From: Bacteroidota bacterium
Lineage (GTDB): Bacteria > Bacteroidota > Bacteroidia > Bacteroidales > SKPS01
Assembly: GCA_022709695.1 (NCBI GenBank)
Contig: JAKLII010000001.1
Coordinates: 460,881 to 524,880, forward strand
Length of the DNA stretch: 64,000 nt
Direction: 5' to 3'
Below, one piece after another: positions 1 through 15,060 of the stretch. Position numbers and translations under genes: made by a program. The notes below the pieces were generated by a model. It was not told the origin of the DNA, did not search any database, and saw nothing but the letters and a program-made list of their open reading frames with translations. The stretch's first letter is position 1. Each line of letters starts with the position of its first letter.

Positions 1-6
1 GATCCG

Positions 7-43
7 CATCTGCCGCACCAGCGGTGCTTTCTTCTCGTGTGGC
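7..43 (+). repeat. 37-bp repeat, left copy (partner at 4985-5021)
   Basis: This 37-base stretch matches 4985-5021 in the same orientation without gaps, at 31 of 37 positions by eye. Each copy contains a small palindrome (GCACC..CGGTGC). The copies bracket the integrase and the cassette-like genes. They could be a dispersed extragenic palindrome or the remains of boundary repeats; the sequence alone does not decide. Confidence 0.5.
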
Positions 44-198
44 CCAGGCAGACATGAATTAAAAGGGTAGCCCCCCTGAGGCCAACTCATTCAAGGTTCA
101 AGGATTAACCCAATTGGCACACGGATAAAACGGATCAGACAGATTTGCACCGGCTTCAAACCCCAAATCACTCATAACTCATAACTCATTCCTCTCCT

Positions 199-229
199 TT
201 TTCCGTGTTTCAATCAACTATACGGAAAA
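199..229 (+). promoter_or_regulatory. Inverted repeat just upstream of the integrase start
   Basis: TTTTCCGT (199-206) and ACGGAAAA (222-229) form an 8-bp inverted repeat ending 9 bases before the integrase start codon. The 11-mer TATACGGAAAA at 219-229 recurs at 1491-1501, just before the cassette insertion point. This could be a recombinase binding site or an autoregulatory operator; that is inference. Confidence 0.35.
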
Positions 230-238
230 GAAACCTCT

Positions 239-1393
239 ATGAAAAAGCTTCCCTGGATTACCTTACGGCGGGGTACAGAGCACCACCGCGACGTAATTAC
301 CATGCATTTCTGGTACCAGCGTGAATTGGTTGAACACCTCAAGAGTTTGGCGATTGCCCGGTACAACACTGACAATAAATACTGGTATACCGATGCAAAA
401 GGATTTGATTACAAAGCTTTTGCCGAGGCCATGAAGCCGGTGGCCATGGTTAACTACCGGGAGTTGCTTCCGTTGCCGAAGCCATTGCAACGCAGATTAT
501 CAGAGCCGGATGCCGGAAAACCGCCAGCCAGAACAAAGCGCAAACCGCTCAGTGCCGATAACCTGAGCCATGTTAAACAATTCCGCATCTGGATGGAGCA
601 CAAGCGGTACAGCGCCTCTACGGTGAAGACGTACACCGATGCCATAGCCGGTTTTTTAGCATTTCTGCAACCCAAACCAGCCGGAGATGCGGTTAATGCC
701 GACATGGTGCGGTACGTTCACGAGTATATCATTGGCAACGGATACAGCTTTGCGATGCAGAACCAGGCGGTGAATGCCATGAAACTGTTTTACAGGGAGA
801 TCATCCGGGCAAGGATTGAAATTGAGAAGCTGGAGCGCCCACGTAGCGAGCACAAACTACCGAATGTGCTAAGCAAAGAGGAGGTAAAGGCGATTCTGGA
901 CGCATTGTCAAACCCAAAGCACAAAGCGATGTTGAGTCTGATCTATGCCTGCGGATTGCGAAGGAGTGAGTTGCTGAACCTGAAGCCAGCGGATGTGGAT
1001 TCGAAACGGGGTTTGCTGATCATCAGGCAGGGCAAAGGGCGAAAGGACCGGGTAGCGCCGTTACCGGAACGGTTGGTGGATATGCTGCGTGAATATTACA
1101 AAGGATACCGCCCGAAGGTTTGGCTATTTGAGGGGCAAAAGCCCGGCATGCAGTATTCTCCAACAAGTCTGCAGGAGGTCTTAAAGACAGGCCTGGAGAA
1201 ATCCGGTGTAAAGCGAAACGCCACGTTACACTGGCTACGACACAGTTACGCGACCCATTTGCTCGAAAACGGAACCGATCTGCGGTACATCCAGGAGCTT
1301 CTCGGGCACAAGAGCAGCAAAACCACTGAAATCTATACCCATGTGACAGATAACAGCCTGAAAAAAATTCGTTCACCGTTTGATGATTTGTAA
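239..1393 (+). CDS. Tyrosine recombinase of an integron-like cassette array
   Basis: Site-specific recombinase of the tyrosine integrase family (384 aa). The catalytic set is visible: Arg241 (GLRRSE), Lys266 (QGKGRKDR), His331 and Arg334 (HWLRHS), His357 (LLGHKS) and nucleophile Tyr366 (IYTHV). A SAM-like DNA-binding domain covers about residues 105-200. In front lies an extra N-terminal domain of about 80 residues rich in aromatic and basic residues. The C-terminus ends in RSPFDDL, reminiscent of the RSPLD tail of integron integrases, but the stretch between GKGRKDR and HWLRHS has XerC/D length and lacks the extra segment that marks IntI. The gene reads toward the small cassette-like genes downstream, the reverse of class 1 integrons. 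Likely role: inserting and excising those cassettes. Alternative: an unrelated solitary Xer-like integrase. Confidence 0.9.
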   Translation: MKKLPWITLRRGTEHHRDVITMHFWYQRELVEHLKSLAIARYNTDNKYWYTDAKGFDYKAFAEAMKPVAMVNYRELLPLPKPLQRRLSEPDAGKPPARTKRKPLSADNLSHVKQFRIWMEHKRYSASTVKTYTDAIAGFLAFLQPKPAGDAVNADMVRYVHEYIIGNGYSFAMQNQAVNAMKLFYREIIRARIEIEKLERPRSEHKLPNVLSKEEVKAILDALSNPKHKAMLSLIYACGLRRSELLNLKPADVDSKRGLLIIRQGKGRKDRVAPLPERLVDMLREYYKGYRPKVWLFEGQKPGMQYSPTSLQEVLKTGLEKSGVKRNATLHWLRHSYATHLLENGTDLRYIQELLGHKSSKTTEIYTHVTDNSLKKIRSPFDDL

Positions 1394-1408
1394 AAGTATC
1401 TATCTTTG
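1379..1408 (+). promoter_or_regulatory. Promoter reading into the cassette array (Pc-like)
   Basis: A Bacteroidota-type promoter with a -33 box TTTG at 1379-1382, an 18-base spacer and a -7 box TATCTTTG at 1401-1408. It overlaps the last codons of the integrase gene and points into the first cassette, like the Pc promoter of integrons. The aroF promoter at 44423-44452 has the same box sequences and spacing. Confidence 0.6.
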
Positions 1409-1490
1409 GGGTGTAGTACCAACCACTTGATCCATGTACAGAAATAAAAACGGCCCGTTTCCTCACAATACTTTCCACAGGTTACAGGTA

Positions 1491-1526
1491 TATACGGAAA
1501 AACCGGGTCTATATACGAGTTATAAC
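1491..1526 (+). other. attI-like insertion point
   Basis: GTTATAAC at 1519-1526 is a palindromic core of the form G^TTRRRY and marks the left edge of the first cassette. The same octamer stands just after that cassette's gene (2190-2197), as expected for the R' and R'' halves of one cassette. TATACGGAAAA at 1491-1501 repeats the 11-mer that precedes the integrase gene and may be a recombinase binding repeat. The assignment is by position and sequence logic only. Confidence 0.5.
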
Positions 1527-2279
1527 TAAGCCGCTGGACAGACCTCGGACAAAAAAGATTTGACATGACAACAGGCATTTCGGCCGACGACATAAAACTT
1601 TATTCGCAACAGTTTGACAATTTAAATCGACTTATAGGCAAGCGCATTGACAAAATTGAGTTTTATCTTAACGACACCGACAAAGACTTTACTGAAGTCG
1701 AAAACAAATATGGAAAAAGCCTTCTCAGTGGTATCGACATCAAAGTTGACAGTATTTATTATTCAATCGGTAATAGGTTCACAAACATCCATTATGGACT
1801 GACCATTACTCCCGGCAAGACAACAGAGTTTGAATTTATTGAAGATGAAAAGAAACCTTTGCCATATCCGTCAAAGCTCATCGGACAAATTATTACAAGC
1901 ATTGACATTTACTGGATGAAAATTCCTTTTGAAGGGACAATAGGTTTTTATCCGCAAGAAATTCTGATTAAGTCAAACGACAAGACCTTCCTCCTATCTT
2001 CAATTGAAATAAATAACGGTGAAGCGAACACTGAATTTACTGACGAACTTTTAATTATTGAAGACGAACATATTGCAAAACAATTAGAACTTGGACATTT
2101 TGGGCTTAACAACGGCAGACTACTTTTTAATACGGTAGACGAATTAATTAACAGCGGACACGGCTAAATCAACTGTGTGCAGCGGCCAAGTTATAACAGC
2201 ACCTACTTGCAATTTTTTGCGTATTAACGCTCAAATGCATAACTTGGACAAGCAAAAAACTGCAAGTAGCTGCAAAACG
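1520..2279 (+). mobile_element. Integron-like gene cassette 1
   Basis: A 760-bp unit running from the second base of GTTATAAC (1519-1526) to the G of GTTGTGAGC (2279-2287). It holds one complete gene in + orientation, followed at once by an attC-like palindrome. This one-gene-plus-recombination-site design defines an integron cassette. R'' after the gene (GTTATAAC) is the exact reverse complement of R' at the cassette's own start, not of the next cassette's start, as expected if the unit once circularised. Confidence 0.6.
1565..2167 (+). CDS. Hypothetical protein, cassette 1 cargo
   Basis: A soluble protein of 200 aa with no signal peptide and no membrane segment. I do not recognise the family. 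It is rich in Asp, Glu, Ile and Lys, is clearly more AT-rich than the housekeeping genes farther along, and looks like alternating beta strands with short helices. The only gene in the first cassette, it starts about 160 bases after the array promoter, so it would be the most strongly expressed cargo. The start ATG follows GATTTGAC without a clear Shine-Dalgarno sequence, usual in Bacteroidota. Base composition differs from the integrase gene, consistent with separate acquisition. Confidence 0.75.
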   Translation: MTTGISADDIKLYSQQFDNLNRLIGKRIDKIEFYLNDTDKDFTEVENKYGKSLLSGIDIKVDSIYYSIGNRFTNIHYGLTITPGKTTEFEFIEDEKKPLPYPSKLIGQIITSIDIYWMKIPFEGTIGFYPQEILIKSNDKTFLLSSIEINNGEANTEFTDELLIIEDEHIAKQLELGHFGLNNGRLLFNTVDELINSGHG

Positions 2280-2287
2280 TTGTGAGC
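2190..2287 (+). repeat. attC-like palindromic recombination site of cassette 1
   Basis: A 98-bp imperfect palindrome between two genes. R'' is GTTATAAC (2190-2197) and the next R' is GTTGTGAGC (2279-2287). The arms CTACTTGCAATTTTTTGC (2203-2220) and GCAAAAAACTGCAAGTAG (2252-2269) pair over 17 of 18 positions, leaving a loop of about 31 bases. CCAAGTTAT (2186-2194) also pairs perfectly with ATAACTTGG (2239-2247), giving an alternative fold. Size, layout and core sites all fit attC. Confidence 0.65.
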
Positions 2288-2810
2288 AATGCAGAAAAAT
2301 ATCACCAGTAAATAGATTTTCAAAATGATAAGAACAGAAAGATTTGCACTTACAAACCAGGAATACTTTAAGATAATATTAACTAGTTATCTGAAAAAAA
2401 GATGGTGGATTATTTCATTATTGCTATTATCTGGACTTTTATTTTCATTAAGGAATGAAAAAGATTCCTTCGAATACTTCCTTATGTTTTTTGCTTTCTT
2501 CTATCCAATAATTGTCCTAATTTCATTTTGGAGGTATTCAAAATCAAAAGATAACAAACTATTTTTGGTTGAGAGGTTTTATGAGATTTCAGTAGATAGT
2601 ATAACTGGGATATTAAGTGATGGCTCTGAAAGTATAATCAAAAAGGATAACTTCATCAAGACTGTTGAGTTAAGAAAATATTATCTTTTATACATTTCTA
2701 AAAACCAATTTGTTATTTTTCCAAAGAAAGCATTCATAAATCAGCAAGATAAGGATTGGTTTATATTGGAGTATATTAAAAAGATCACAAACTAATGCAC
2801 AGCTCACAAT
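2280..2810 (+). mobile_element. Integron-like gene cassette 2 (3' end of its site damaged)
   Basis: The cassette starts at R' GTTGTGAGC (2279-2287) and contains one gene. Seven bases after the stop codon stands GCTCACAAT (2802-2810), the reverse complement of its own R' at 8 of 9 positions, so it reads as the R'' of this cassette. The rest of the expected attC palindrome cannot be found: the following bases hold REP-like palindromes and a transposase remnant, so the right edge is unknown and the site may be disrupted. Confidence 0.5.
2325..2795 (+). CDS. YcxB-like two-helix membrane protein, cassette 2 cargo
   Basis: A 156-aa protein with two adjacent membrane helices (about residues 27-43 and 52-70) joined by a short charged loop, then a cytoplasmic C-terminal domain. 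That domain ends in a pattern (ISKNQFVIFPKKAF) typical of the YcxB-like family, small bacterial membrane proteins of unknown function. The gene is very AT-rich and is the only one in cassette 2. Membrane-anchored small proteins are common integron cargo, so it fits the array. The YcxB-like call is by motif and layout; the biochemical role is unknown. Confidence 0.7.
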   Translation: MIRTERFALTNQEYFKIILTSYLKKRWWIISLLLLSGLLFSLRNEKDSFEYFLMFFAFFYPIIVLISFWRYSKSKDNKLFLVERFYEISVDSITGILSDGSESIIKKDNFIKTVELRKYYLLYISKNQFVIFPKKAFINQQDKDWFILEYIKKITN

Positions 2811-2825
2811 AAATAGGACTCTGAG

Positions 2826-2894
2826 CGGTGCGAAGCCGAGCGTAGCGAGTCCCGACTTGTCGGGAACCCAGTCCCGCACGTGCGGGATTGAACT
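2826..2894. repeat. REP-like extragenic palindromes after cassette 2
   Basis: A cluster of small hairpins: GCGAAGCCGAGCGTAGCGAGTC, CCCGACTTGTCGGG and CCCGCACGTGCGGG. Related elements occur after cassette 3 (about 4585-4650), at 23314-23362 and inside the rhomboid gene (53378-53473). They sit where the rest of the cassette 2 attC would be expected. Confidence 0.6.
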
Positions 2895-3148
2895 ACAACC
2901 CGCCCTTCGGTGGATTTTGAACTATGTACTTTACGACGTTTATGGGTGCTTTTAGAGGAAAAAAATTACCAGCGTTCTTTGAAAACTTGATGTATTATGT
3001 GCTGGATTCAGCTGTTGGCAATGGTTTTCAGGAGGGAGAAGAACGATTTCAGTGAATATTTAGATGCGTTCAGGCATAGAATACCCGGTTCTGCGGTTTG
3101 CGCAAAATGGGCGTACTATGGTATGCCTGTCAGTTCGGTTGTGATTGA

Positions 3149-3484
3149 GTGAGTAACCCGGGAGATCGGATCCGCCAGTCCATTGTTGAACACCCCTACG
3201 GAACTATCAAGCGGCAATGGGGGTTCAGTTACATCATAACAAAGAAGGGAAAAAGCCGGGCAACTGCCGACGTCGGGTTCATGTATACAGCTTACAACCT
3301 TATGAGAATTACCAATATTTTGAGTTTCTGCGGGTTGTTAACAGCTTTATTCACAATGTGTTCGTATCTCTTGCGTCTATTTGCAACTTTTAAGGCTAAA
3401 AACGGCCATTTTGCCACCCTGGAAGTTTTGAAACAAAAATTACCAACCTCATATACTACCTATCTCAAACATGCTTACATTTGA
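3149..3484 (+). pseudogene. C-terminal remnant of a DDE transposase (IS1182/IS5-like)
   Basis: About the first 60 codons match the C-terminal part of DDE transposases: the segment IVEHPYGTIKRQWGF, carrying the last catalytic Glu, and a following TAYNLMRITNILSF helix are typical. The catalytic Asp regions are missing upstream, where 2900-3148 gives no continuous frame, so this is a truncated relic. The last 40-50 codons run into unrelated sequence holding a TACATTTG promoter box. It lies between cassette 2 and cassette 3 and probably records an insertion that damaged the recombination site between them. No terminal inverted repeats were found. Confidence 0.65.
3476..3483 (+). promoter_or_regulatory. 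TAnnTTTG promoter box before cassette 3
   Basis: TACATTTG, a Bacteroidota -7 box, sits 60 bases before the lipoprotein start. It lies within a longer stretch (CCTATCTCAAAC..TACATTTGATCCT) that recurs before the next lipoprotein gene at 5322-5352. No clear -33 TTTG was found at the right spacing. Confidence 0.45.
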
Positions 3485-3525
3485 TCCTCATAACCCCGGA
3501 ATCGAGGTTTTGAGACAAACTGCCG

Positions 3526-4557
3526 TTAGCGGCTATAATATAATGACACGAATATCAATAACCTTATTATCGATTTGTATGCTGACAAGTTGCAACCAAA
3601 ACTTGACAATTAAAGACGTAGTTATAACTGAACGCTTATTTTCACCTGACAGTTCCTATGTTGTATTGACATATTACAAAGACAATGGAGCCATGGGAGA
3701 AAGTTCTTCAATGACTTCAATCTTAAAAACTGAAGACACTTTAGGACAACTTAATAAAAGTATGTTGCCTTGTTTTGACCTATCATTTTATTCTTGTTAT
3801 TATCCAGACCAATGGTTAGATAACAAGACACTACAAGTAAATTTAAATGAAAGACCTTTTGTGAAAGAAGGGATTCCCTTTGACTCTTCAAGCTTTACAA
3901 TCAATGGCATTAACTGTAAAGTAGTTCCTGCCGACTATTCTTATAGTTTAACTCCATTAATTGAGTATTTTAGTTTCGCTAATGACCGAAAAAAAATACT
4001 CGTTGCTTATCGCTATAAGGGAGACTTAAATATTTCTGCTATCAACTACGGAGACGAATTGCCAAGAATTGGAAATGTATTTACAAACACAGAAATTTCC
4101 TTTAATCCTATAAGATATGTTAGATGGAATGAAAACAGCATTGACATGTTTCTTAAGGATGCTGAAATGTATAATACCTCTGATTACGTTAATAAAAAAA
4201 CACCTTACATAGTCAATTTTGTTGACATTAGCCAATTAAAAGAAACCTATAAAAGCAATGACTATTTTGCATACTTTCCTTTATACAAAGACGATCAAAT
4301 TGACAATCTACTCAAGACAAATGGAATAACTACAAAAGCTACTATTACCGAAAGCCAGTGGAGTAAAGACGGTGATAAAAGTCTATTTTATTATCAATAT
4401 GAGTACGAAGTGACCGGACAAAAATATCGTTCGTATTTTAGAATTTTTAAAGATTTTGAGAAAGGAGCTGATTATGAAATCGGAGATTTAATTACAATAA
4501 AATATGACCCGAAGCAACCATTTATTCACAAGCCTGACAAAAATTACAGCCGCTAAT
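3526..4557 (+). mobile_element. Integron-like gene cassette 3
   Basis: R' GTTAGCGGC at 3525-3533 stands 10 bases before the gene start. GCCGCTAAT at 4549-4557, overlapping the stop codon, is its reverse complement at 8 of 9 positions. The single mismatch is the same C-to-T change at the last base that cassette 2 shows. This matched pair identifies a third cassette. Beyond R'' the expected palindrome is replaced by REP-like hairpins, so the right edge is not defined. Confidence 0.5.
3543..4556 (+). CDS. Lipoprotein, cassette 3 cargo
   Basis: A 337-aa predicted lipoprotein. The ATG just before MTRISITLLSIC was chosen because it gives a normal signal peptide with lipobox LTSC; an in-frame start 24 codons upstream would put unrelated residues before the signal. 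After the Cys comes a segment SPDSSYVV..YYKDNGAMGE seen in several uncharacterised Bacteroidota lipoproteins. The last 60 residues resemble a DUF3592-like beta fold ending YEIGDLITIKYDPKQP. The gene is strongly AT-rich, unlike the core genes. Its stop codon lies inside the R'' core of the cassette, so gene and recombination site are tightly packed. Function unknown. Confidence 0.75.
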   Translation: MTRISITLLSICMLTSCNQNLTIKDVVITERLFSPDSSYVVLTYYKDNGAMGESSSMTSILKTEDTLGQLNKSMLPCFDLSFYSCYYPDQWLDNKTLQVNLNERPFVKEGIPFDSSSFTINGINCKVVPADYSYSLTPLIEYFSFANDRKKILVAYRYKGDLNISAINYGDELPRIGNVFTNTEISFNPIRYVRWNENSIDMFLKDAEMYNTSDYVNKKTPYIVNFVDISQLKETYKSNDYFAYFPLYKDDQIDNLLKTNGITTKATITESQWSKDGDKSLFYYQYEYEVTGQKYRSYFRIFKDFEKGADYEIGDLITIKYDPKQPFIHKPDKNYSR

Positions 4558-4984
4558 AGATAAGGCTTCGTGCGTCGCCAGCCAAGCATGAAGTCCCGCA
4601 GATGCGGGATTGCACAGCCTGTCCCGGCTTGCCGGGAAAAGCCCGCTCCCTATTTATGGGGTTTTAATGATTTGAAGAGGATGGAATAGGAAAAATCCGA
4701 AGGGTGAACGCCCGGAAAGCCAAAGAAAAATGGCAGATACAAGCTTAATGGACTTATAATCTACGCTTACATCAATCAATTTCAGGCGGTTGGGCAAAAG
4801 AAATCCGGGTCCCTTACTGGATAAATCGGACTATACTGACCCCCTGAAACGGACGTTCATGGATCACAATAAAAGAATTTGATCCGGGACAAAAACCTGC
4901 CATTCCGGCAGATATTGACCCCCATTATTTGCAAAATTGGGCAAAAAAACGGCGCATGTTGACCCCTTTGAGCCTGGCAATCCC

Positions 4985-5021
4985 CATCTGCCGCACCTAC
5001 GGTGCTTATTTCAGGTGTGGC
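4985..5021 (+). repeat. 37-bp repeat, right copy (partner at 7-43)
   Basis: Same orientation and length as the copy at 7-43, with six differences. Together the copies enclose the integrase, the three cassettes and the transposase remnant. Confidence 0.5.
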
Positions 5022-5321
5022 GCTTTTCTCCGTGGGACGATGTCCCCGGTTTGAATCTGCCTGCCCTCCGGGCATCAGGGCGTTCATCCAGCTATGCGGG
5101 TTAGGGAGCTGCTGCGTAACATCATTTCCCACGGCTGTGATCCGGGGCTGATCCTGTTCAACCCGCTACCGATATTTCGCTCCCTTTGGCAAGGTTCAGG
5201 GAATCGCCTGCAGATCTTCAAATTTCTAAAACCCGGATCCTGGAACATGGAACCCGGATCCTTGATCTTTGATCTTTGACTTTTTGTAGGTAAAAATCTG
5301 CGATCCGGATCAGATTTTTTC

Positions 5322-5352
5322 AACCTATCTCAAACTTTCGTACATTTGATCC
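5322..5352 (+). promoter_or_regulatory. Repeated promoter module with TACATTTG
   Basis: The stretch CCTATCTCAAAC followed by TACATTTGATCCT repeats the one at 3459-3488 with four differences. The -7 box is TACATTTG at 5341-5348. The next start codon is 150 bases downstream, so a long leader or an unseen start is implied. Confidence 0.4.
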
Positions 5353-5497
5353 TTCGATGGACGGAAGAGAAATTCATGTTCGGGTCTGATGCTGACAAAG
5401 ATCAGATGAACGCAGAAAAAACAGAATTAAACAGAATTGTCATAATAATACCGGATACTGTAAAATATATATCAAATATTAATAAAACAAATTTCTC

Positions 5498-5893
5498 ATG
5501 AATAAGACCGTTGTACTTTTTACATTATTGACCTTGTTGTCATTTGGGTGCAAAAAACAGATCCTGGATGAAAACCCTGATTATGAAGGTGTCTGGAAGT
5601 CGGAATGTTTTGGGATGGGATGTGACAGATATACGCTGACGATCAAAAGTGACAATACGGGAGAATATATTGCCAGTGGCCAGGAAATTGAAAATGTGCA
5701 TTACAAGGGAACCGTCCGGATTAAAGACAACACCCTGAAAATAGGACTAAACCATGCTTTTACCGTTAATACCCCACCCACTGAAAAGCATGATACCGTG
5801 ACTTCCTATTGCCAATGCCTTTATGGTGAAGAGATGGTGTATTCCAGGTATCTGACCATAGACAATATCACATTCTATAAGGAGCAGAGATAA
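5498..5893 (+). CDS. Small lipoprotein of unknown function
   Basis: A 131-aa predicted lipoprotein with signal peptide and lipobox LSFGC near residue 18. The mature part starts with an acidic linker and continues as a small beta-rich domain, with a YEGVWKSE opening that resembles lipocalin-like or META-like Bacteroidota domains. Further Cys residues (FGMGC, YCQCL) could form disulfides. I do not recognise a named family. It lies between the cassette block and the UvrA-like gene, preceded by the repeated TACATTTG module, so it may be another acquired unit; no matching R'/R'' pair was found for it. Confidence 0.75.
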   Translation: MNKTVVLFTLLTLLSFGCKKQILDENPDYEGVWKSECFGMGCDRYTLTIKSDNTGEYIASGQEIENVHYKGTVRIKDNTLKIGLNHAFTVNTPPTEKHDTVTSYCQCLYGEEMVYSRYLTIDNITFYKEQR

Positions 5894-5903
5894 TAAACCT
5901 TCG

Positions 5904-5911
5904 TACATTTG
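5904..5911 (+). promoter_or_regulatory. Promoter box before the UvrA-like gene
   Basis: TACATTTG, the third copy of this box ahead of an accessory gene here. It is followed by CGAGGTTTT and then GTTTAGCCTTAT (5947-5958), the same order of elements as before cassette 3. Confidence 0.45.
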
Positions 5912-5996
5912 GCCCTCAGAAGGCCGCAAACGAGGTTTTTCCGTCAGTTTAGCCTTATGCACAGTGGTGAAAACAACAAGAATCTTATAATATGTT

Positions 5997-8252
5997 ATGG
6001 AAAAGAGTTCAATCATAATTCAGAATGCGCATACCAACAATCTCAAGAATATCTCCGTTGAGATCCCCAAGAATAAACTGGTAGTATTTACAGGGGTTTC
6101 AGGATCGGGAAAGTCCTCATTGCTTTTCGACACCCTATACACAGAGGCACAACGACAATTGATTGAAACATTCTCAACCTTTGCCCGCACCCGTATGCCC
6201 AAGCTCTCCCGACCCGATGTGGATGATATTTATAACCTTTCGACAGCCATCGTAATTGATCAGAAAAGAATGGGAAGCAACCTGCGAAGCACCGTGGGAA
6301 CCGCCACCGAAATCAACACCTATCTCAGGCTGCTTTATTCGCGGGTTGGAAAACCTTTTATCGGACCCTCATTTTATTTCTCATTCAATCATCCTGAAGG
6401 AATGTGCCAGCATTGCAAAGGACTCGGAAAGCAAATCAAAGTCGATCTGAATATCTTTCTCGATAAGGAAAAATCGCTGTTCGATGGGGCAATTACTCAT
6501 CCGCATTATAAACCGGGGGGGTTTTTATGGAAAGAACTGATTGCCGTTGAACTGTTTGACAACCATAAGAAACTGAAAGACTTTCCGGAAGAGGAGCTGC
6601 ACAGATTATTGTATTCCGAACCTTTTACCATCAAGGACGCCAAACAAAAACTGACCTATAACCGCAAGTTTGAGGGAATAGCCCGAAAACTTGAAAATGC
6701 AGTATCGGGAAGGGCTGATGACGAATCCTCTGAAGATGACAAAAATGCCTATTCGCGCTATTTCGTTTATAAAACGTGTGATTCATGCCACGGGACAAGG
6801 ATCAGTGAAAGGGCAGAATCGGTGAAAATCAATGATGTTTCCATTGGGCAATTGTGCCAGATGGAACTTACCGACGTATTGGCATTTCTTGGAAACATTA
6901 CCGGTGATTTATCGGTTCCGGTATTGCGCAAAGCCCGATTTGTGTTAGAGCAGCTGATAGAGATCGGCGTTGGCTATTTATCACTGGACAGACCTGTTTC
7001 AACGCTTTCGGGCGGAGAGTCGCAACGTGTAAAAATGGCCCGGCAGCTGGATTGCAACCTCGTTGATTTGCTATATGTACTCGACGAACCAACCATAGGT
7101 TTACACCCCCGCGATACCCAAAAACTGCTCACAATACTCAACCGGCTGAAAATCAAGGGGAACAGCATTTTCGTGGTTGAACACGACCCCGATATGATCG
7201 AAGCAGCTGAATGGATTGTGGACCTCGGTCCCAGGGCAGGGACATTGGGAGGAGAGGTGGTTTACAACGGAACCTTCAGCGATTTTAAAAATGCCCAAAG
7301 CATAACCAGCAAATATCTTTTCAGTTCGCCCAGGCCAGGCCACGTCAGAAAACAGGCGCAGGACTTTTATCTGATCGAAAATGCGAACGCGAACAACCTG
7401 AAAAATCTGAGTGTCAGAATTCCCAAAGGATTATTGACCTGTATTACCGGAGTGGCAGGAAGCGGCAAAAGCAGCCTGATTTTCGATTGTTTTGCCAGAC
7501 AGCATCCGGAGGCGATAGTGATTGACCAGTCAGCGATAGGCAGGTCGTCGAGAGCAAATTCCATGACGTATATCGGGGCATTCGACCTTATCCGGAAGGA
7601 GTTTGCCAGACATACCGGTTCAGAAGCTTCATTGTTCAGTTTTAACTCAAAGGGAGCTTGTCCGAAATGCAATGGTCAGGGTACACTGTCATTTGAAATG
7701 TTTTTTCTCGATGCTGTCAAAACCGTTTGCGATGAATGCGAAGGGAAAAGGTATCATTCCGAAATACTTGAATTGAAATATAAAGGAAAAAATATCGCAG
7801 AAGTATTGGACATGACCGTGCTGCAGGCACTTGATTTCTTTGATGACCATAAACTGCTGAAGATGTTGAAAACCCTGGACGATGTAGGACTTGGGTATTT
7901 AAATCTCGGGCAATCAACAAGTACTTTGTCCGGTGGCGAATCACAAAGGTTGAAGATTGCATCTGAACTGCACAAAGAAAGCAATATCTATATTATGGAC
8001 GAACCGACAACCGGCCTGCATTTGTCAGATATTGACAAATTCTACCGGATCATCAAATCATTGGTGGATAACCATAATACAGTGGTGATCATTGAGCATA
8101 ACCTGGATATTATCAAATACGCCGACTGGATCATTGACCTGGGACCGGAAGGAGGTAAAAACGGCGGAGAGGTTCTATTTGAGGGCACTCCTGAAAATCT
8201 GATCAATTGTGAAAAGTCATACACCGGAAAACATTTATTAAAGAAAATATAA
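5997..8252 (+). CDS. Short UvrA-like ABC ATPase
   Basis: A two-domain ABC ATPase of the UvrA family (751 aa). The first half has Walker [10 protein letters not shown] (33-41), CxxC clusters (CQHC; CDSC), signature LSGGESQR and Walker [11 protein letters not shown]. The second half has Walker [10 protein letters not shown] (about 485), CPKC and CDEC pairs, signature LSGGESQR and [10 protein letters not shown]. True UvrA has about 940 residues; the missing part fits loss of the UvrB-binding region, as in UvrA2-type proteins linked to drug or DNA-damage tolerance. It is therefore probably not the main repair UvrA. Just before it is GTTTAGCCTTAT, and ATAAGGCTA at its stop codon is the exact complement of the last nine bases of that word, a weak hint that it too is a cassette. 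Confidence 0.9.
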
Positions 8253-8319
8253 GGCTATAAATACTTTTACTTAACAGATAAGGCTTCCCTTATAATTGAA
8301 CCATTGTCAGGATAAAACC

Positions 8320-9015
8320 ATGGTAGAAAAATTAAATAAATCAGGAATAAATGCATTCATGGCACCACTTCGCTGGATTATTGTTACAGGAGTGGTTTAT
8401 TTTCTCGCTTCCGGAGAAATTGGTATCCTGAGAGCATGGATCTATATTGGGGTTTATGCTATCGGCGGGCTGATCATTGGTATTATACTCCTGAAAAAAA
8501 CACCACAACTGTTAAATGACAGAGGAAAGATGCAGCAGGGAACAAAACTGTTCGATAAGTATATGATCCTGATATACTTTCTATTTGCAATTGCTGTTAC
8601 CCCGTTTGTTGCAGGAATTGACAGGAGGTTAAATCTTTCTGAATCATTACCCTTCTTCTGCTTATATATCGGGATTATACTGTACATCTTTTCAACAATA
8701 TTCTCCATATGGCCAATGCTTCATAATCCTTTCTTTGAAGGCACAATACGAATACAGAGCGAGAAATCCCATTATGTAATAAATACAGGGCCATATAAAA
8801 TAGTACGTCATCCAGGATACCTTGGAATGCTTCTGGGTTCAGTATCATTACCTTTGGCATTTGGCTCTGTACTTGCATTTATTCCCCTGGCCATTATGAT
8901 TGTTTTAATTCTTATAAGAACATACTATGAGGATGCTACTTTACAGAAAGAATTGACCGGATATTCAGAATATTGCAAAGATGTCAAATATAAACTAATT
9001 CCTTTCATCTGGTAA
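8320..9015 (+). CDS. ICMT/PEMT-type membrane methyltransferase
   Basis: An integral membrane protein of 231 aa with about five helices. The C-terminal pattern GPYKIVRHPGYLG, then RTYYEDATLQKELTGYSEYCKDVKYKLIPFIW-like residues, is the SAM-binding signature of isoprenylcysteine carboxyl methyltransferase and phospholipid methyltransferase relatives. In bacteria these usually methylate lipids or small hydrophobic molecules; the substrate here is unknown. The ATG at MVEK is preferred over an upstream TTG because AGGA lies about 7 bases before it. It follows the UvrA-like gene closely and is 19 bases before the hydrolase, so the three may be co-transcribed. Confidence 0.8.
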   Translation: MVEKLNKSGINAFMAPLRWIIVTGVVYFLASGEIGILRAWIYIGVYAIGGLIIGIILLKKTPQLLNDRGKMQQGTKLFDKYMILIYFLFAIAVTPFVAGIDRRLNLSESLPFFCLYIGIILYIFSTIFSIWPMLHNPFFEGTIRIQSEKSHYVINTGPYKIVRHPGYLGMLLGSVSLPLAFGSVLAFIPLAIMIVLILIRTYYEDATLQKELTGYSEYCKDVKYKLIPFIW

Positions 9016-9034
9016 GTCTGAAATAAATTACGAC

Positions 9035-10207
9035 ATGAACAGGACATATTTGTGGGTAATAACAGGTATTATAATTATTGTATTAGCTTTTGTTTTCCAT
9101 ATTCCGGGATTTTATATTTTTCTGGGTATTGTTCTGATATTGCTTGCCAGAACATTTAATCCGTTCCGGCTTTCCGTTGAGAAAATACCTGAAGGATTCA
9201 TTGAAAAGCAATTCAATACAGGGGCTGTCACCTTAAACTATGTTGAAGGACCGAAAAATGGACCCTCTCTGCTGTTTATTCCCGGCCAGATGGAATTCTG
9301 GCAGGGATACAATCTTGTATTGCCCTATTTCTCCAAAAAATATCATGTGTTTGTTGTGGACGTGAGAGGGCACGGAAAATCAACCTTTACACCCGGGAAA
9401 TATTCATACAACCTTATTGGTGAAGACCTTAAGTTATTTCTCGAACAAGTAATCAAAGAAAGAACCATTGTATCCGGACTTTCTTCGGGTGGAATACTTT
9501 CATTGTGGCTAGCAGCCAATGCTCCTGAATGCGTTTTAACAGCCATCATTGAAGACCCTCCCTATTTTTCTTCCATATATCCAAGGATAAAAGAAGAAAA
9601 ATACATGTATTATCTCTTTAAAACGGCCATAGAAACACTTGGCAATGGCAGGAGAGATATCAGAAGCTTTTTTGCCAGACAGGGTATACCCCTAAAGGAC
9701 AAGGAAAATTTGTTGCTGATGCCTTCTTTTATAGCAAGCTACAGGTCAATAAGCCTTGCGCTGAACAAAAAAATCAGACCGCATAAAAAATACGATTTAC
9801 TGAATGCCCGATTTGACCAACGGGCAGGTCTAAAATTTATCAGCGAGTATGATGTGGATTTCTCGAAAGCAACCATTGACGGGAGATTAACAGAAGGATT
9901 TGATCCGGAAGAAACATTGAAGAAAATCCAGTGCCCTGTTTTATTGATTCATGCTTATTGGTCGAGACATAAAACCTGGGGATTAATAGGTGCCCTTGAT
10001 GATGATGATGTGGAAAAAATCCGTTCGGGGTTGAAGGACCTTAAAGTTGTGAGGGTAGATGCCATACACGATGTTCATTTAGCTAAACCTAAGATATTTA
10101 TCAAGGTTATAAGTGAATACCTGGACAATTTGATGGGGCTCAGGAACAAACTTACACCGTCCGGAATACAGGAACAGCAAATGAACAATTTCCTGATGAT
10201 CCAATAG
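9035..10207 (+). CDS. Membrane-anchored alpha/beta hydrolase
   Basis: A 390-aa alpha/beta hydrolase with two hydrophobic N-terminal segments (about 5-22 and 25-38), probably a membrane hairpin. The core shows the oxyanion-side strand LLFIPGQ (about 80-85), VVDVRGHGKS (108-116) and the nucleophile elbow GLSSGG with Ser150. The catalytic His is probably in the late IHDVHLAKP segment. Substrate unknown; members hydrolyse esters, amides or thioesters. It directly follows the ICMT-type methyltransferase and may act with it on a lipid, but that is inference from proximity. Confidence 0.8.
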   Translation: MNRTYLWVITGIIIIVLAFVFHIPGFYIFLGIVLILLARTFNPFRLSVEKIPEGFIEKQFNTGAVTLNYVEGPKNGPSLLFIPGQMEFWQGYNLVLPYFSKKYHVFVVDVRGHGKSTFTPGKYSYNLIGEDLKLFLEQVIKERTIVSGLSSGGILSLWLAANAPECVLTAIIEDPPYFSSIYPRIKEEKYMYYLFKTAIETLGNGRRDIRSFFARQGIPLKDKENLLLMPSFIASYRSISLALNKKIRPHKKYDLLNARFDQRAGLKFISEYDVDFSKATIDGRLTEGFDPEETLKKIQCPVLLIHAYWSRHKTWGLIGALDDDDVEKIRSGLKDLKVVRVDAIHDVHLAKPKIFIKVISEYLDNLMGLRNKLTPSGIQEQQMNNFLMIQ

Positions 10208-11124: not shown

Positions 11125-12336
11125 ATGCATAAAAAAAAGATACTCTTTGTTCCTTTTGATTTGCTTGCACATTATCTGAGATGCCTGGAACTGGCCAAAA
11201 GCATCCGGAATGAGGCGGTTGAAATCGTGTTTCTGCAATCTGTCAGGTATAACGATTTCATTCGCAACCATGGGTTCAGATACACCGACGGGGTCTGCGA
11301 GGGGTATAGTCAGGTGGTTATGAAGGCCGGAAAATTTGATTTCTCCTGGATTAACGAAAAGTCGACCCAAAAAACCGTCTGCAGTCTAATGGAGGTGCTG
11401 GAGGATAAAAATCCCGATCTGGTGATAGGTGATACCTATCCCGGGCTCAATATAGCCTGTAACTATCTGAAGATTGAACACATCGCTTTAATCAATGCAT
11501 ACGTAACAAACCATTACACAGGTTTCCGGGATACACCCCATTCCCATCCGGCAAATCTGTTCAGGCGATATGTAAGTCAGGAGAAATGGACAAAAATCGT
11601 CATGCTGGCTGAAGACATGATGCTCAGGAAGGTGCACAGCCCTTACAGGAAAATCCGGGAAAACCTGGGATTGGAACCAAAAGTCAACCTTTTTGATGAA
11701 TTCACCGGGGACACGAATTTCATTGTGGACGACAAGCAGTTATTCCCCACTGAAGGCCTTCCGGACAATTTTATTCAGGAGGGGCCGATCCTGTTCACTT
11801 GCACACAGGCTGAAGAAAGGGTTCATGAATTCCTGCACCAGCACCGCAGCAAACCCACGATTTATGTCAGCACAGGGAGCAGCGGGAAGAATATCGTGCC
11901 TGAAACCATTCATGACTCCAGGCTAACGGGGTTCAACCTGATCATATCGGGCAGCGAAAGGGAGTCTGAGACGGAAAATGCTATTTTCAGAAGGTTCGTA
12001 AATTTTGATGATATAGCTGATAAAGTGGATCTGGTTCTTTGTCACGGCGGGAACGGAACGTTGTACCAGGCGCTGAATGCAGGCAAAAGGATCATTGCAG
12101 TGCCCTACATATTTGAGCAGGAATGGAATGTGCAACGGTTTACCACACTTAATCTGTGCAAAGTGTTTTATCATGATGAGAAGCCGGAAAAGCTCATCAG
12201 GCTGATCAGACAAACGCTGGCTGAACCCCCGGGCACCACCTGCAAGGATGCCTTCTGTGCCGTGCCGGATATCTATAAGGAATTTATTTTCAAAAGCCGG
12301 GTAAGCGATAAAAATGTACTTTTGATAGCAGATTAA
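11125..12336 (+). CDS. Glycosyltransferase, UGT/MGT type (GT1-like)
   Basis: A 403-aa GT-B fold glycosyltransferase. The N-terminus starts with a short strand and LAHYLRCLELAKSI, like macrolide and UDP-glucuronosyl transferases. The C-terminal donor site shows LVLCHGGNGTLYQALNAGKRI, then AVPYIFEQEWN, typical of the GT1 nucleotide-sugar binding motif. It probably glycosylates a lipid or small molecule in the cytoplasm; donor and acceptor cannot be told. A small membrane protein follows after 24 bases and a secreted CotH protein after that, so it may head a short operon. Confidence 0.8.
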   Translation: MHKKKILFVPFDLLAHYLRCLELAKSIRNEAVEIVFLQSVRYNDFIRNHGFRYTDGVCEGYSQVVMKAGKFDFSWINEKSTQKTVCSLMEVLEDKNPDLVIGDTYPGLNIACNYLKIEHIALINAYVTNHYTGFRDTPHSHPANLFRRYVSQEKWTKIVMLAEDMMLRKVHSPYRKIRENLGLEPKVNLFDEFTGDTNFIVDDKQLFPTEGLPDNFIQEGPILFTCTQAEERVHEFLHQHRSKPTIYVSTGSSGKNIVPETIHDSRLTGFNLIISGSERESETENAIFRRFVNFDDIADKVDLVLCHGGNGTLYQALNAGKRIIAVPYIFEQEWNVQRFTTLNLCKVFYHDEKPEKLIRLIRQTLAEPPGTTCKDAFCAVPDIYKEFIFKSRVSDKNVLLIAD

Positions 12337-12944: not shown

Positions 12945-15008
12945 ATGTTAAAAACTATTACCCTTTGTTCCATTGTACTGTTATCATTACTGAAAGTTGG
13001 ATCAGCCCAGCAAACCATCCTTTCCGACAGCAATCTGCCGATTCTGGTGATTACCACCGACACGAACCCATCTACGCATCAGCCTTATGTAATTGCAGAT
13101 GAACCCAAGGTTCCTGCAACCCTGAAACTGATTTACAGGCCTGATGGCTCAAGGAACTATCTGACAGACATCACCAATCCGGCTTTTTTGAACTACAATG
13201 GCAAGATCGGCATCGAATTCAGAGGCAGTACTTCACAGACCCTCCCCAAGAAGCCCTACGGATTCTCAACCTACCTTGCGGATAATACCACCAACAATAA
13301 TGTAAGCCTGCTGGGGATGCCTTCCGAAAACGACTGGGTGCTGAACTCCCTGGCTTTTGACCCTTCGATGATCCGTGATTATCTTTCATACACCCTTGCT
13401 GCCAGTACAGGTAACTATGCCCCGCGGGTGAGGTTTGTGGAGGTGATTGTGAATGGTGATTATGTGGGTGTGTATTTTCTGACCGAGAAGATCAAGATTG
13501 ATTCAGACCGGGTAAACCTTGTGAAACTGACCACATCAGATAATACATCTCCCAATGTTACAGGAGGTTATATCATTAAAGCCGACAAGCTCAATTCCGG
13601 CGAAACCGCAGCCTGGACAACCTGGGGTTACCATGGCAACACCGACTACCTGTACGACAGTCCGGAAGCAGAGGATATCACCAGTCAGCAGGGGCTTTAC
13701 ATCAAGAGTGTTTTCACCGATCTGGCCACCAAAACCAACCCGATGAATTCATCCATCACCGACGGATATCCCACCATCATTGACATTCCCAGTTTTGTAG
13801 ATTACATGCTCATTGCAGAGATCTCATCCAATGTGGATGCCTACCAGTTCAGTACCTATTTTCACAAAGACAGAGGCGGAAAACTCAGAGCGGGCCCGGT
13901 GTGGGATTACAACCTCACGTTCGGGAATGACCTGTTTCAATATGGGGTTGACAGAAGCAAGTACAACGTGTGGCAGTTCAACAATACCGACAATACTGGA
14001 TCGAAATTCTGGAGAGACCTGTACAATAACTCCACCTTCAAGTGCTATATGGCCAAGCGGTGGCTGGAGCTTACGGCTTCTGGCAAGCCCTTCAATTATA
14101 CCACCCTGGCAAATCAGATTGATCTGCTTGTACTGCTGCTGTCAGAATCCAAGAACAGGGAGCAGTTAAGGTGGGGTACCGTTGGTACGCAAGCCACCAA
14201 TATTTCCGAGATGAAAACTTGGATTCAGAACAGAATCAACTGGATCACCACCAATATCGGCTCTGCATCCGCCTGTTCGGGAGTACAGGTTCCCGGCCTG
14301 GTCATCAGCAAAATCCATTATCATCCCAAGGATGCCGGCGGATATGACAGTGATGACCTGGAATTTATCGAGATCACCAACCATTCGAACCAGGTGGTTA
14401 CCACCACAGGGTATTATATCAGGGAATTAGGGATTTCGTACCAGTTTCCTGCCGGCACCAGCATTGCGGCCAATCAGAAAATCTATCTCTGCAGCAATGT
14501 AAGTGTATTCAGCAGTTATTACGGGATCACACCTTACGGACAATTCTCCCGGAATCTGAAGAACAGCTCCTATCACATCATTCTTTCAGATGCTTTCGGG
14601 AATACCATCGATGAGGTTTTCTACAGCGACAGTTCCCCATGGCCCACCACACCCGATGGAGATGGCCCCTACCTGCAGCTGATTGACCTCAATTACGACA
14701 ACAGTCTGGCTTCGAGCTGGATAGCAAGTTCACTGCCATTATCTGCAGAGGATCCTGTAATCTATGATCTTGCCGTGGATGTATATCCGAACCCCACCCG
14801 GGGGGTTGTGAATTTCAGTCTGGGATCATTCCGGGGCAAGGAGCTGGATCTGATCATTTTCAATGCTTACGGGCAGCAGGTTGAAGCCTTCAGTATCGGA
14901 CAGGCAAACCTGCAGATCGACCTGAGCAGGCATCCGGCCGGGATGTATTTATACAGCATCAGGGATGGTGGTGTTATTTTGCTGAATGGCAGGTTGATGA
15001 AGGAGTAA
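12945..15008 (+). CDS. Secreted CotH-family protein with lamin-tail and T9SS domains
   Basis: A 687-aa secreted protein with signal peptide ending near VGSAQ. Residues about 70-440 form a CotH kinase-like domain (IEFRGSTSQ, PKKPYGFS, LAFDPSMIRDYL, VNGDYVGVYFLTEKI). CotH proteins are atypical kinases of secreted or spore-coat proteins. A lamin-tail domain follows (about 450-570: VISKIHYHPKD, DLEFIEITNH), then a C-terminal type IX sorting domain (VYPNPTRGVVNF near 615). It should pass the outer membrane through T9SS and stay at the surface. A strong terminator follows at once. Confidence 0.9.
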   Translation: MLKTITLCSIVLLSLLKVGSAQQTILSDSNLPILVITTDTNPSTHQPYVIADEPKVPATLKLIYRPDGSRNYLTDITNPAFLNYNGKIGIEFRGSTSQTLPKKPYGFSTYLADNTTNNNVSLLGMPSENDWVLNSLAFDPSMIRDYLSYTLAASTGNYAPRVRFVEVIVNGDYVGVYFLTEKIKIDSDRVNLVKLTTSDNTSPNVTGGYIIKADKLNSGETAAWTTWGYHGNTDYLYDSPEAEDITSQQGLYIKSVFTDLATKTNPMNSSITDGYPTIIDIPSFVDYMLIAEISSNVDAYQFSTYFHKDRGGKLRAGPVWDYNLTFGNDLFQYGVDRSKYNVWQFNNTDNTGSKFWRDLYNNSTFKCYMAKRWLELTASGKPFNYTTLANQIDLLVLLLSESKNREQLRWGTVGTQATNISEMKTWIQNRINWITTNIGSASACSGVQVPGLVISKIHYHPKDAGGYDSDDLEFIEITNHSNQVVTTTGYYIRELGISYQFPAGTSIAANQKIYLCSNVSVFSSYYGITPYGQFSRNLKNSSYHIILSDAFGNTIDEVFYSDSSPWPTTPDGDGPYLQLIDLNYDNSLASSWIASSLPLSAEDPVIYDLAVDVYPNPTRGVVNFSLGSFRGKELDLIIFNAYGQQVEAFSIGQANLQIDLSRHPAGMYLYSIRDGGVILLNGRLMKE

Positions 15009-15060
15009 TTTTATGCGTTTCGCACGAAGACAAACGCAAAGTATAACAAAATCCCCCGGG

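Follow-up and report, generated by a model that had tools for sequence, protein, structure and literature searches.

Integron integrases (IntI) are defined in surveys by an additional domain (PMC2426708, PMC9668308), and the locus described here raises the question of whether a tyrosine recombinase without it can serve an integron-like array of gene cassettes. The locus lies in a 64,000-nucleotide (nt) stretch of DNA, referred to as the window, which corresponds to positions 460881-524880 of contig C1 in the Bacteroidota genome G000 (3.39 Mb, 21 contigs). An initial annotation, made from the letters of the window, described a recombinase followed by three small genes with matching G^TT-type cores and proposed a cassette-capture system built on a different recombinase branch, with integrase and cassettes in the same direction. 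Comparison with related loci supports this proposal, the third gene excepted. The locus is read here as a cassette-capture platform with integron anatomy, in which the recombinase would act on an adjacent attI site and on the attC sites of cassettes, and the probability of this reading is put at roughly 0.9. In the window the array is short, with two cassettes and a decayed end, and is made up of the following features.

239-1393, + strand: gene for a tyrosine recombinase (integron-integrase-like, 384 amino acids (aa), Phage_integrase match at E 4e-39), without the IntI-specific insertion.
239-472, + strand: N-terminal HARP-like domain of the recombinase (residues 1-78), assigned from profile, Pfam, AlphaFold 2 (AF2) and Foldseek results.
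1379-1408, + strand: candidate cassette promoter of the Bacteroidota -33/-7 type, TTTG-N18-TATCTTTG, assigned from a consensus match and related loci.
1489-1521, + strand: attI-like site with the direct repeat TATATACG at 1489-1496 and 1510-1517 and the exchange point G^TT at 1519/1520.
1520-2279, + strand: cassette 1, with an open reading frame (ORF) at 1565-2167 (200 aa, no Pfam family); R' GTTATAAC at 1519 equals R'' GTTATAAC at 2190.
2195-2281, + strand: attC-like hairpin (AAC ... GTT), matched by covariance model R1 at 47.1 bits (E 6.6e-8).
2280-2810, + strand: cassette 2, with a decayed 3' end, an ORF at 2325-2795 for a YcxB-like protein of 156 aa and a degenerate R'' at 2802-2810.

Six catalytic residues of the recombinase (R241, K266, H331, R334, H357 and Y366) are invariant across 29 homologues. 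The segment that the initial annotation had found missing between boxes II and III is indeed absent: residues 182-242 of IntI4 align opposite only about 19 residues of the window protein, and the motif-to-motif gap measures 67-68 residues in 112 homologues, compared with 109 in three canonical IntIs. The protein scores 209 bits with the TIGR02249 model, below the cut-off of 265. A quick tree of 141 rows, of the kind that the annotation had suggested, places six insertion-bearing IntIs in a clade of their own (99 in the Shimodaira-Hasegawa-like approximate likelihood ratio test) and the window protein in a separate group of 122 rows, with both groups distinct from XerC and XerD. On sequence criteria the recombinase lacks the IntI insertion, lies on a branch apart from canonical IntI and scores as a non-member of that family. 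The recombinase of one genus (loci L044-L047) is about 484 aa long, ~100 aa longer than that of the window, and near-identical copies of it occur in several species.

The promoter proposed for the 3' end of the integrase gene is present with an exact TTTG at 1379-1382, the 18-nt spacer and TATCTTTG at 1401-1408. Among 46 related loci, 21 carry TAnnTTTG within -30 to +60 of the recombinase stop, mostly at +11, where 1.8 would be expected, and the promoter is retained in two integrase-less copies in G000. At the level of consensus, this candidate promoter would read into the array. The TATATACG repeat of the attI-like site ends two bases short of the exchange point at 1519, and most loci of the closer clade have an attI-like ATATAAAC-RAG^TT about 100 nt past the recombinase stop.

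If the units behind this site are cassettes, the start core of each must match its own end core, because both derive from one circle. Both core pairs that had been described for the first two genes are present in the window: the complementarity around GTTATAAC in cassette 1 reaches 22 nt at 86%, and in cassette 2 GTTGTGAGC at 2279 pairs with GCTCACAAT at 2802, where the end shows AAT for AAC. The attC-like palindrome reported between genes 1 and 2 has arms at 2199-2220 and 2252-2273 that are 91% complementary, and the model R1 that matches it was built from sites of other genomes and one site of contig C21 of G000, with the window hairpin itself excluded. A covariance model scan found no attC hairpin behind cassette 2, and Rfam gave no match within positions 1-10000 of the window. 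The core comparison was extended to related genomes as the annotation had proposed, and the cores flank cargo there as well: in 84 pairs, R' and R'' inside cassettes match at a mean of 5.13 of 8 positions, compared with 2.62 for permuted partners (maximum 3.14 in 2000 permutations). Where the match holds, it typically covers GTT and a further six to seven bases.

The hairpins were then counted in two sets of loci with a finder that uses the pattern AAC, stem, stem, AACGTT. The first set of 40 loci, turned to the recombinase strand, gave 57 sense, 2 antisense and 4 shuffled matches in 497 kb. The second set of 62 named loci includes Flavobacterium psychrophilum DSM 3660, Algoriphagus ornithinivorans, Arundinibacter roseus and Algibacter onchidii and contains many distant homologues; here 31 matches lay downstream and 3 upstream, with 7 in antisense and 13 in shuffled sequence. 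In a sample of 395 Bacteroidota genomes, 120 encode recombinase homologues at a cut-off of E<=1e-40. The attC-model scan that had been suggested, performed with a covariance model of 32 sites, returned matches in 185 of the 395 genomes, comprising 104 of the 120 with a recombinase and 81 of the 275 without (odds ratio 15.6, p 3e-27), and in 38 of the 39 genomes of the closest clade. Nearly all model matches in 57 loci (164/168) lie on the recombinase strand, and three of the others are the same palindromic site read in reverse. No model match was found in 308 kb around 21 outgroup-control homologues, nearly all of them non-Bacteroidota. One locus outside the phylum (L187, contig PFIF01000184.1 of a Deltaproteobacteria metagenome-assembled genome) has a recombinase of this kind together with an attI-like site and a single hairpin, and could represent transfer or mis-binning.

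The stems of these sites covary. Across the 19-bp stem of 44 distinct sites, 278 cells are double-changed, compared with 89 after shuffling, and the covariation score is 0.716, compared with 0.160 for shuffled and at most 0.126 for slid partners. Only one pair departs from this: at a fixed position in the stem, 43 of the 44 sites have an A.C mismatch. Mismatches on the top strand are more often A.C (145) than G.T (54), and 67 of 93 sites fold better on the bottom strand, the strand used in canonical integrons (PMC4792948). The canonical bulged bases do not align in the sites, which instead have the conserved A.C mismatch and a spacer asymmetry of 1 versus 5 nt.

The alternative that survives best, although it is improbable, is that these are ordinary integron cassettes without an integrase, the CALIN class of IntegronFinder, moved in trans by a canonical IntI and standing beside an unrelated mobile-element integrase. 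A canonical IntI is in fact encoded in two of 15 array genomes (L082 in G284 and L083 in G006, both Bacteroidota), beside the new-type recombinase, and the 81 genomes with attC matches and no recombinase at E<=1e-40 also fit this explanation. However, neither G000 nor 12 of the 14 other array genomes checked gave a canonical IntI above the family cut-off. The position of attI also argues against it, since in dozens of genomes attI lies directly behind a recombinase of this type and the arrays begin there, and model R1 gives zero matches in Vibrio, IntI1-like and IntI2 loci.

Natural exchange at the attI site can be followed among close relatives. Genomes G311, G284, G303, G098 and G117, all of one genus, encode near-identical recombinases. 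Between G311 and G284, an identity of 94% runs through the recombinase and attI and ends exactly at AAAGGAGTT (...AAAGGAG^TT), with different genes beyond. The locus pairs L067/L068 and L043/L048 likewise stop at G^TT with different cassettes beyond, and the end points of such alignments between near-identical loci include ...CTAG^TT (79% identity) and ...AAG^TT (93% identity). The comparison of strains called for by the initial annotation thus yields homologous loci whose cassettes vary and whose breaks fall exactly at the attI G^TT. A single cassette start, with ~60 identical nt counted from the G of G^TT, recurs at three loci: in L051 it follows an attC, and in L069 and L130 it follows attI sites that differ from each other. 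The gene of this cassette also occupies the first position in L059 (73% identity). Other cassette genes are common to different families, with their positions changed. Comparison thereby establishes the attI/attC anatomy, the G^TT boundaries, the matched R'/R'' cores, the exchange of first cassettes and the reuse of cassettes. Among the cargo products are a pterin-binding enzyme, a type VI retron-like reverse transcriptase and an AriAB-like protein, as well as proteins resembling GmrSD; a dihydropteroate-synthase-type (pterin-binding) gene lies in the array region of L059 at 8746-9549 on the - strand.

A reading in which the recombinase is instead a dimer-resolution enzyme of the Xer/XerA type, and the hairpins serve as terminators or as repetitive extragenic palindromic (REP)-like repeats between genes, is very unlikely. 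The nearest structural relatives of the recombinase are archaeal XerA enzymes, whose solved catalytic cores (5hxy and 4a8e) are the closest available and have no insertion; the NCBI model XerA_Arch scores the window protein marginally over its cut-off (221.3 vs 220), and the hairpins do stand behind genes. XerA, however, resolves chromosome or plasmid dimers and has neither a HARP-like domain nor cassettes. Models for XerC and XerD score the window protein far under cut-off, and G000 encodes XerC and XerD in separate genes. The hairpins, at ~121 nt with fixed AAC/GTT ends, are accompanied by cores that match across the gene and not across the hairpin, and loci break at G^TT.

Other copies of the platform are present in the same genome. 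A second copy of the recombinase on contig C21, 87% identical, heads a longer array, in which the start core of consecutive cassettes equals their own end core (GTTAGCCA..TGGCTAAC, GTTGTGCAAC..GTTGCACAAC and GTTATAGGGC..CCCTATAAC) and model R1 detects an attC at all of these junctions. The first C21 cassette (L009, oriented positions 2768-6506) is multi-gene and encodes QueC, TGT, an oligonucleotide cyclase, a two-transmembrane (2TM) effector and OGG, which together form a complete type IV cyclic oligonucleotide-based antiphage signalling system (CBASS). Two further loci, L005 (G000:C12 near 487400, - strand) and L006 (G000:C15 near 323900, + strand), were considered as sites of a further integrase and ruled out as such; they are integrase-less remnants in which promoter and attI are followed by a cassette. 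Their identity to the window site is 76-78%, and the C12 copy retains a remnant of the recombinase 3' end. Both are read as decayed integrons, which may still act in trans.

The third gene of the window is a different case, involving two further features.

3320-3527, + strand: promoter module outside the array, with TACATTTG at 3476-3483, 93% identical to a C21 copy and one of about 12 in the genome.
3525-4557, + strand: single cassette-like gene for a DUF3592-type protein, bounded by GTTAGCGGC and GCCGCTAAT and located behind the dispersed module.

The core pair reported for this gene (GTTAGCGGC at 3525, GCCGCTAAT at 4549) is present in the sequence. About 700 bp of repeats separate cassette 2 from the gene, which follows a 214-bp module (3320-3533) that is 93% identical to the stretch on C21, with the identity stopping just past the common CAAACTGCCGTT and different genes following. 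The module motif TACATTTGATCCTC occurs ~12 times in the genome, and the motif TACATTTGATCCTCAGAAGGC occurs 12 times at <=3 mismatches and never in a backwards control. Module copies have a promoter and leader in common and then unrelated single genes, with matching core pairs at gene start and end in two of them, those of the window and of L099. The covariance model scan found no attC after 4557. A single array of all three genes is ruled out by the C21-like module before gene 3 and by this absence of attC, so of the three-cassette array first described, cassettes 1 and 2 stand and the third gene, which follows a separate dispersed promoter module, falls outside. In all, about 12 copies of the module TACATTTGATCCTCAG...GAGGTTTTTAGACAAACTGCCG were observed (window 3320-3527; L094-L105; contigs C1, C15, C19 and C21 of G000), and the module may be a solo insertion platform of a second type. 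One array region contains two near-identical isochorismatase-like genes, each behind a module copy (L009, oriented positions 11661-12158 and 14544-15041). The repeats that interrupt the window array at 2811-3527 and recur elsewhere in the genome would suit another reading, in which the integrase is of transposon or phage type and the genes beside it have turned over through ordinary recombination or insertion sequence activity. This reading is highly improbable, because several independent pairs break exactly at G^TT and a single cassette start recurs at three different sites.

The initial annotation described the recombinase correctly as lacking the IntI insertion and overlooked its N-terminal HARP-like domain. 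With a profile of the N-termini of 26 homologues, the HARP domain of SMARCAL1 (4o66) is the sole significant PDB match (E 6e-4), and the Pfam families HARP and DUF5710 match several homologues (best HARP member 5.8e-5). The AF2 model of residues 1-78 has a predicted local distance difference test (pLDDT) score of 92 and the order b-b-a-b-b-a-b, the fold order of SMARCAL1 HARP and of the XPB damage-recognition domain, which differ in that they sit in eukaryotic or archaeal repair helicases. Foldseek ranks 4o66 first, weakly (E 0.15, prob 0.72). VIA-align puts the XPB N-terminal domain near the top at a Z of about 5, but level with eIF1 folds, and 4o66 is absent among its best 50 matches. In the full-length AF2 model the pLDDT is 83 per residue and the placement of domains is uncertain, with a predicted template modelling score (pTM) of 0.52. 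HARP-type domains bind forked or structured DNA, and to our knowledge no recombinase with a HARP domain has been known. The domain may aid the reading of folded attC.

Under the proposed mechanism, the recombinase (239-1393) would recombine the G^TT of attI (1519) with the attC hairpins of circular gene cassettes, and the insertion of cassettes behind the promoter at the recombinase 3' end would allow a captured gene to be expressed. This recombinase is the presumed enzyme of the reaction and the folded bottom strand of attC its presumed substrate, with which the mismatch asymmetry and folding energies are consistent. The structure reading performed in IntI by the insertion would be performed here by the HARP-like domain.

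Several points weigh against this interpretation. Excision, integration and circular cassettes are postulated from comparison. In 81 genomes attC matches occur with no recombinase at the cut-off, and shared descent of sites and genomes means that the p-values overstate independence. For the N-terminal domain, the window protein scores 15.4 bits against Pfam HARP (PF07443), under the gathering score of 25, and some distant homologues with the domain have no array by the hairpin finder. Rows with the domain more often have arrays (Fisher p 3e-4), with three independent contrasts only on the tree, and a strict association of HARP with attC was for this reason dropped.

The platform resembles the known integron (IntI/attI/attC/Pc; class 1-3 and sedentary chromosomal) in its tyrosine recombinase, adjacent attI with G^TT, cassette promoter, exchange at attI and defence genes in the cargo, as well as in co-oriented, mostly single-gene cassettes, each with a terminal imperfect palindrome R''-L''-L'-R' with AAC...GTT ends. 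It differs in having a recombinase without the IntI insertion, on another branch and with a HARP-like domain; a recombinase gene co-directional with the cassettes and carrying the promoter at its 3' end; and an R' consensus of the GTTRGC type, the fixed-pair A.C mismatch and a Bacteroidota promoter type. All integron parts that can be judged by sequence are present except the defining integrase segment, and the platform would therefore be a variant of the integron and not a member of the IntI family. IntegronFinder recognizes IntI by a two-profile test (PMC9024848, PMC9668308), and version 2 lists for Bacteroidetes only In0 elements and one Salinibacter ruber integron (PMC9024848). Bacteroidota attC clusters without a recognised IntI would be classed as CALIN; unlike CALIN or In0, the present loci have a dedicated recombinase, which the two-profile test misses. 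Smyshlyaev et al. (2021) point to incomplete conservation of the insertion within their integron-like subgroup and still call it essential for integron function, and the available portion of that paper gives no platform or sites for insertion-less members (PMC8138268). No description of the present platform was found in a search of the open-licence literature, which left subscription papers and preprints outside its scope.

A wider interpretation, offered tentatively and at slightly less than even odds, is that the platform represents a second, phylum-wide class of integron that recognizes folded attC by a HARP-like domain and not by the IntI insertion, that cassette capture either evolved from Xer-like recombinases on two occasions or is older than the insertion, and that many Bacteroidota CALIN cassettes belong to this class. 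The IntI-specific segment is held to be the defining and necessary feature of integron integrases and is the search key of standard software, so standard integron searches would class these cassettes as integrase-less. A platform without the segment, with recombinase homologues in about one-third of the sampled Bacteroidota, would change estimates of integron distribution and would provide the recombinase that many orphan attC clusters lack. Ideas on how cassette capture originated, such as the speculation that an Xer-like ancestor gained an I2-like domain (PMC4792948), would become directly testable. With anti-phage systems among its cargo (type IV CBASS, retron type VI reverse transcriptase, AriAB and GmrSD-type), the platform may be a defence reservoir at the scale of the phylum.

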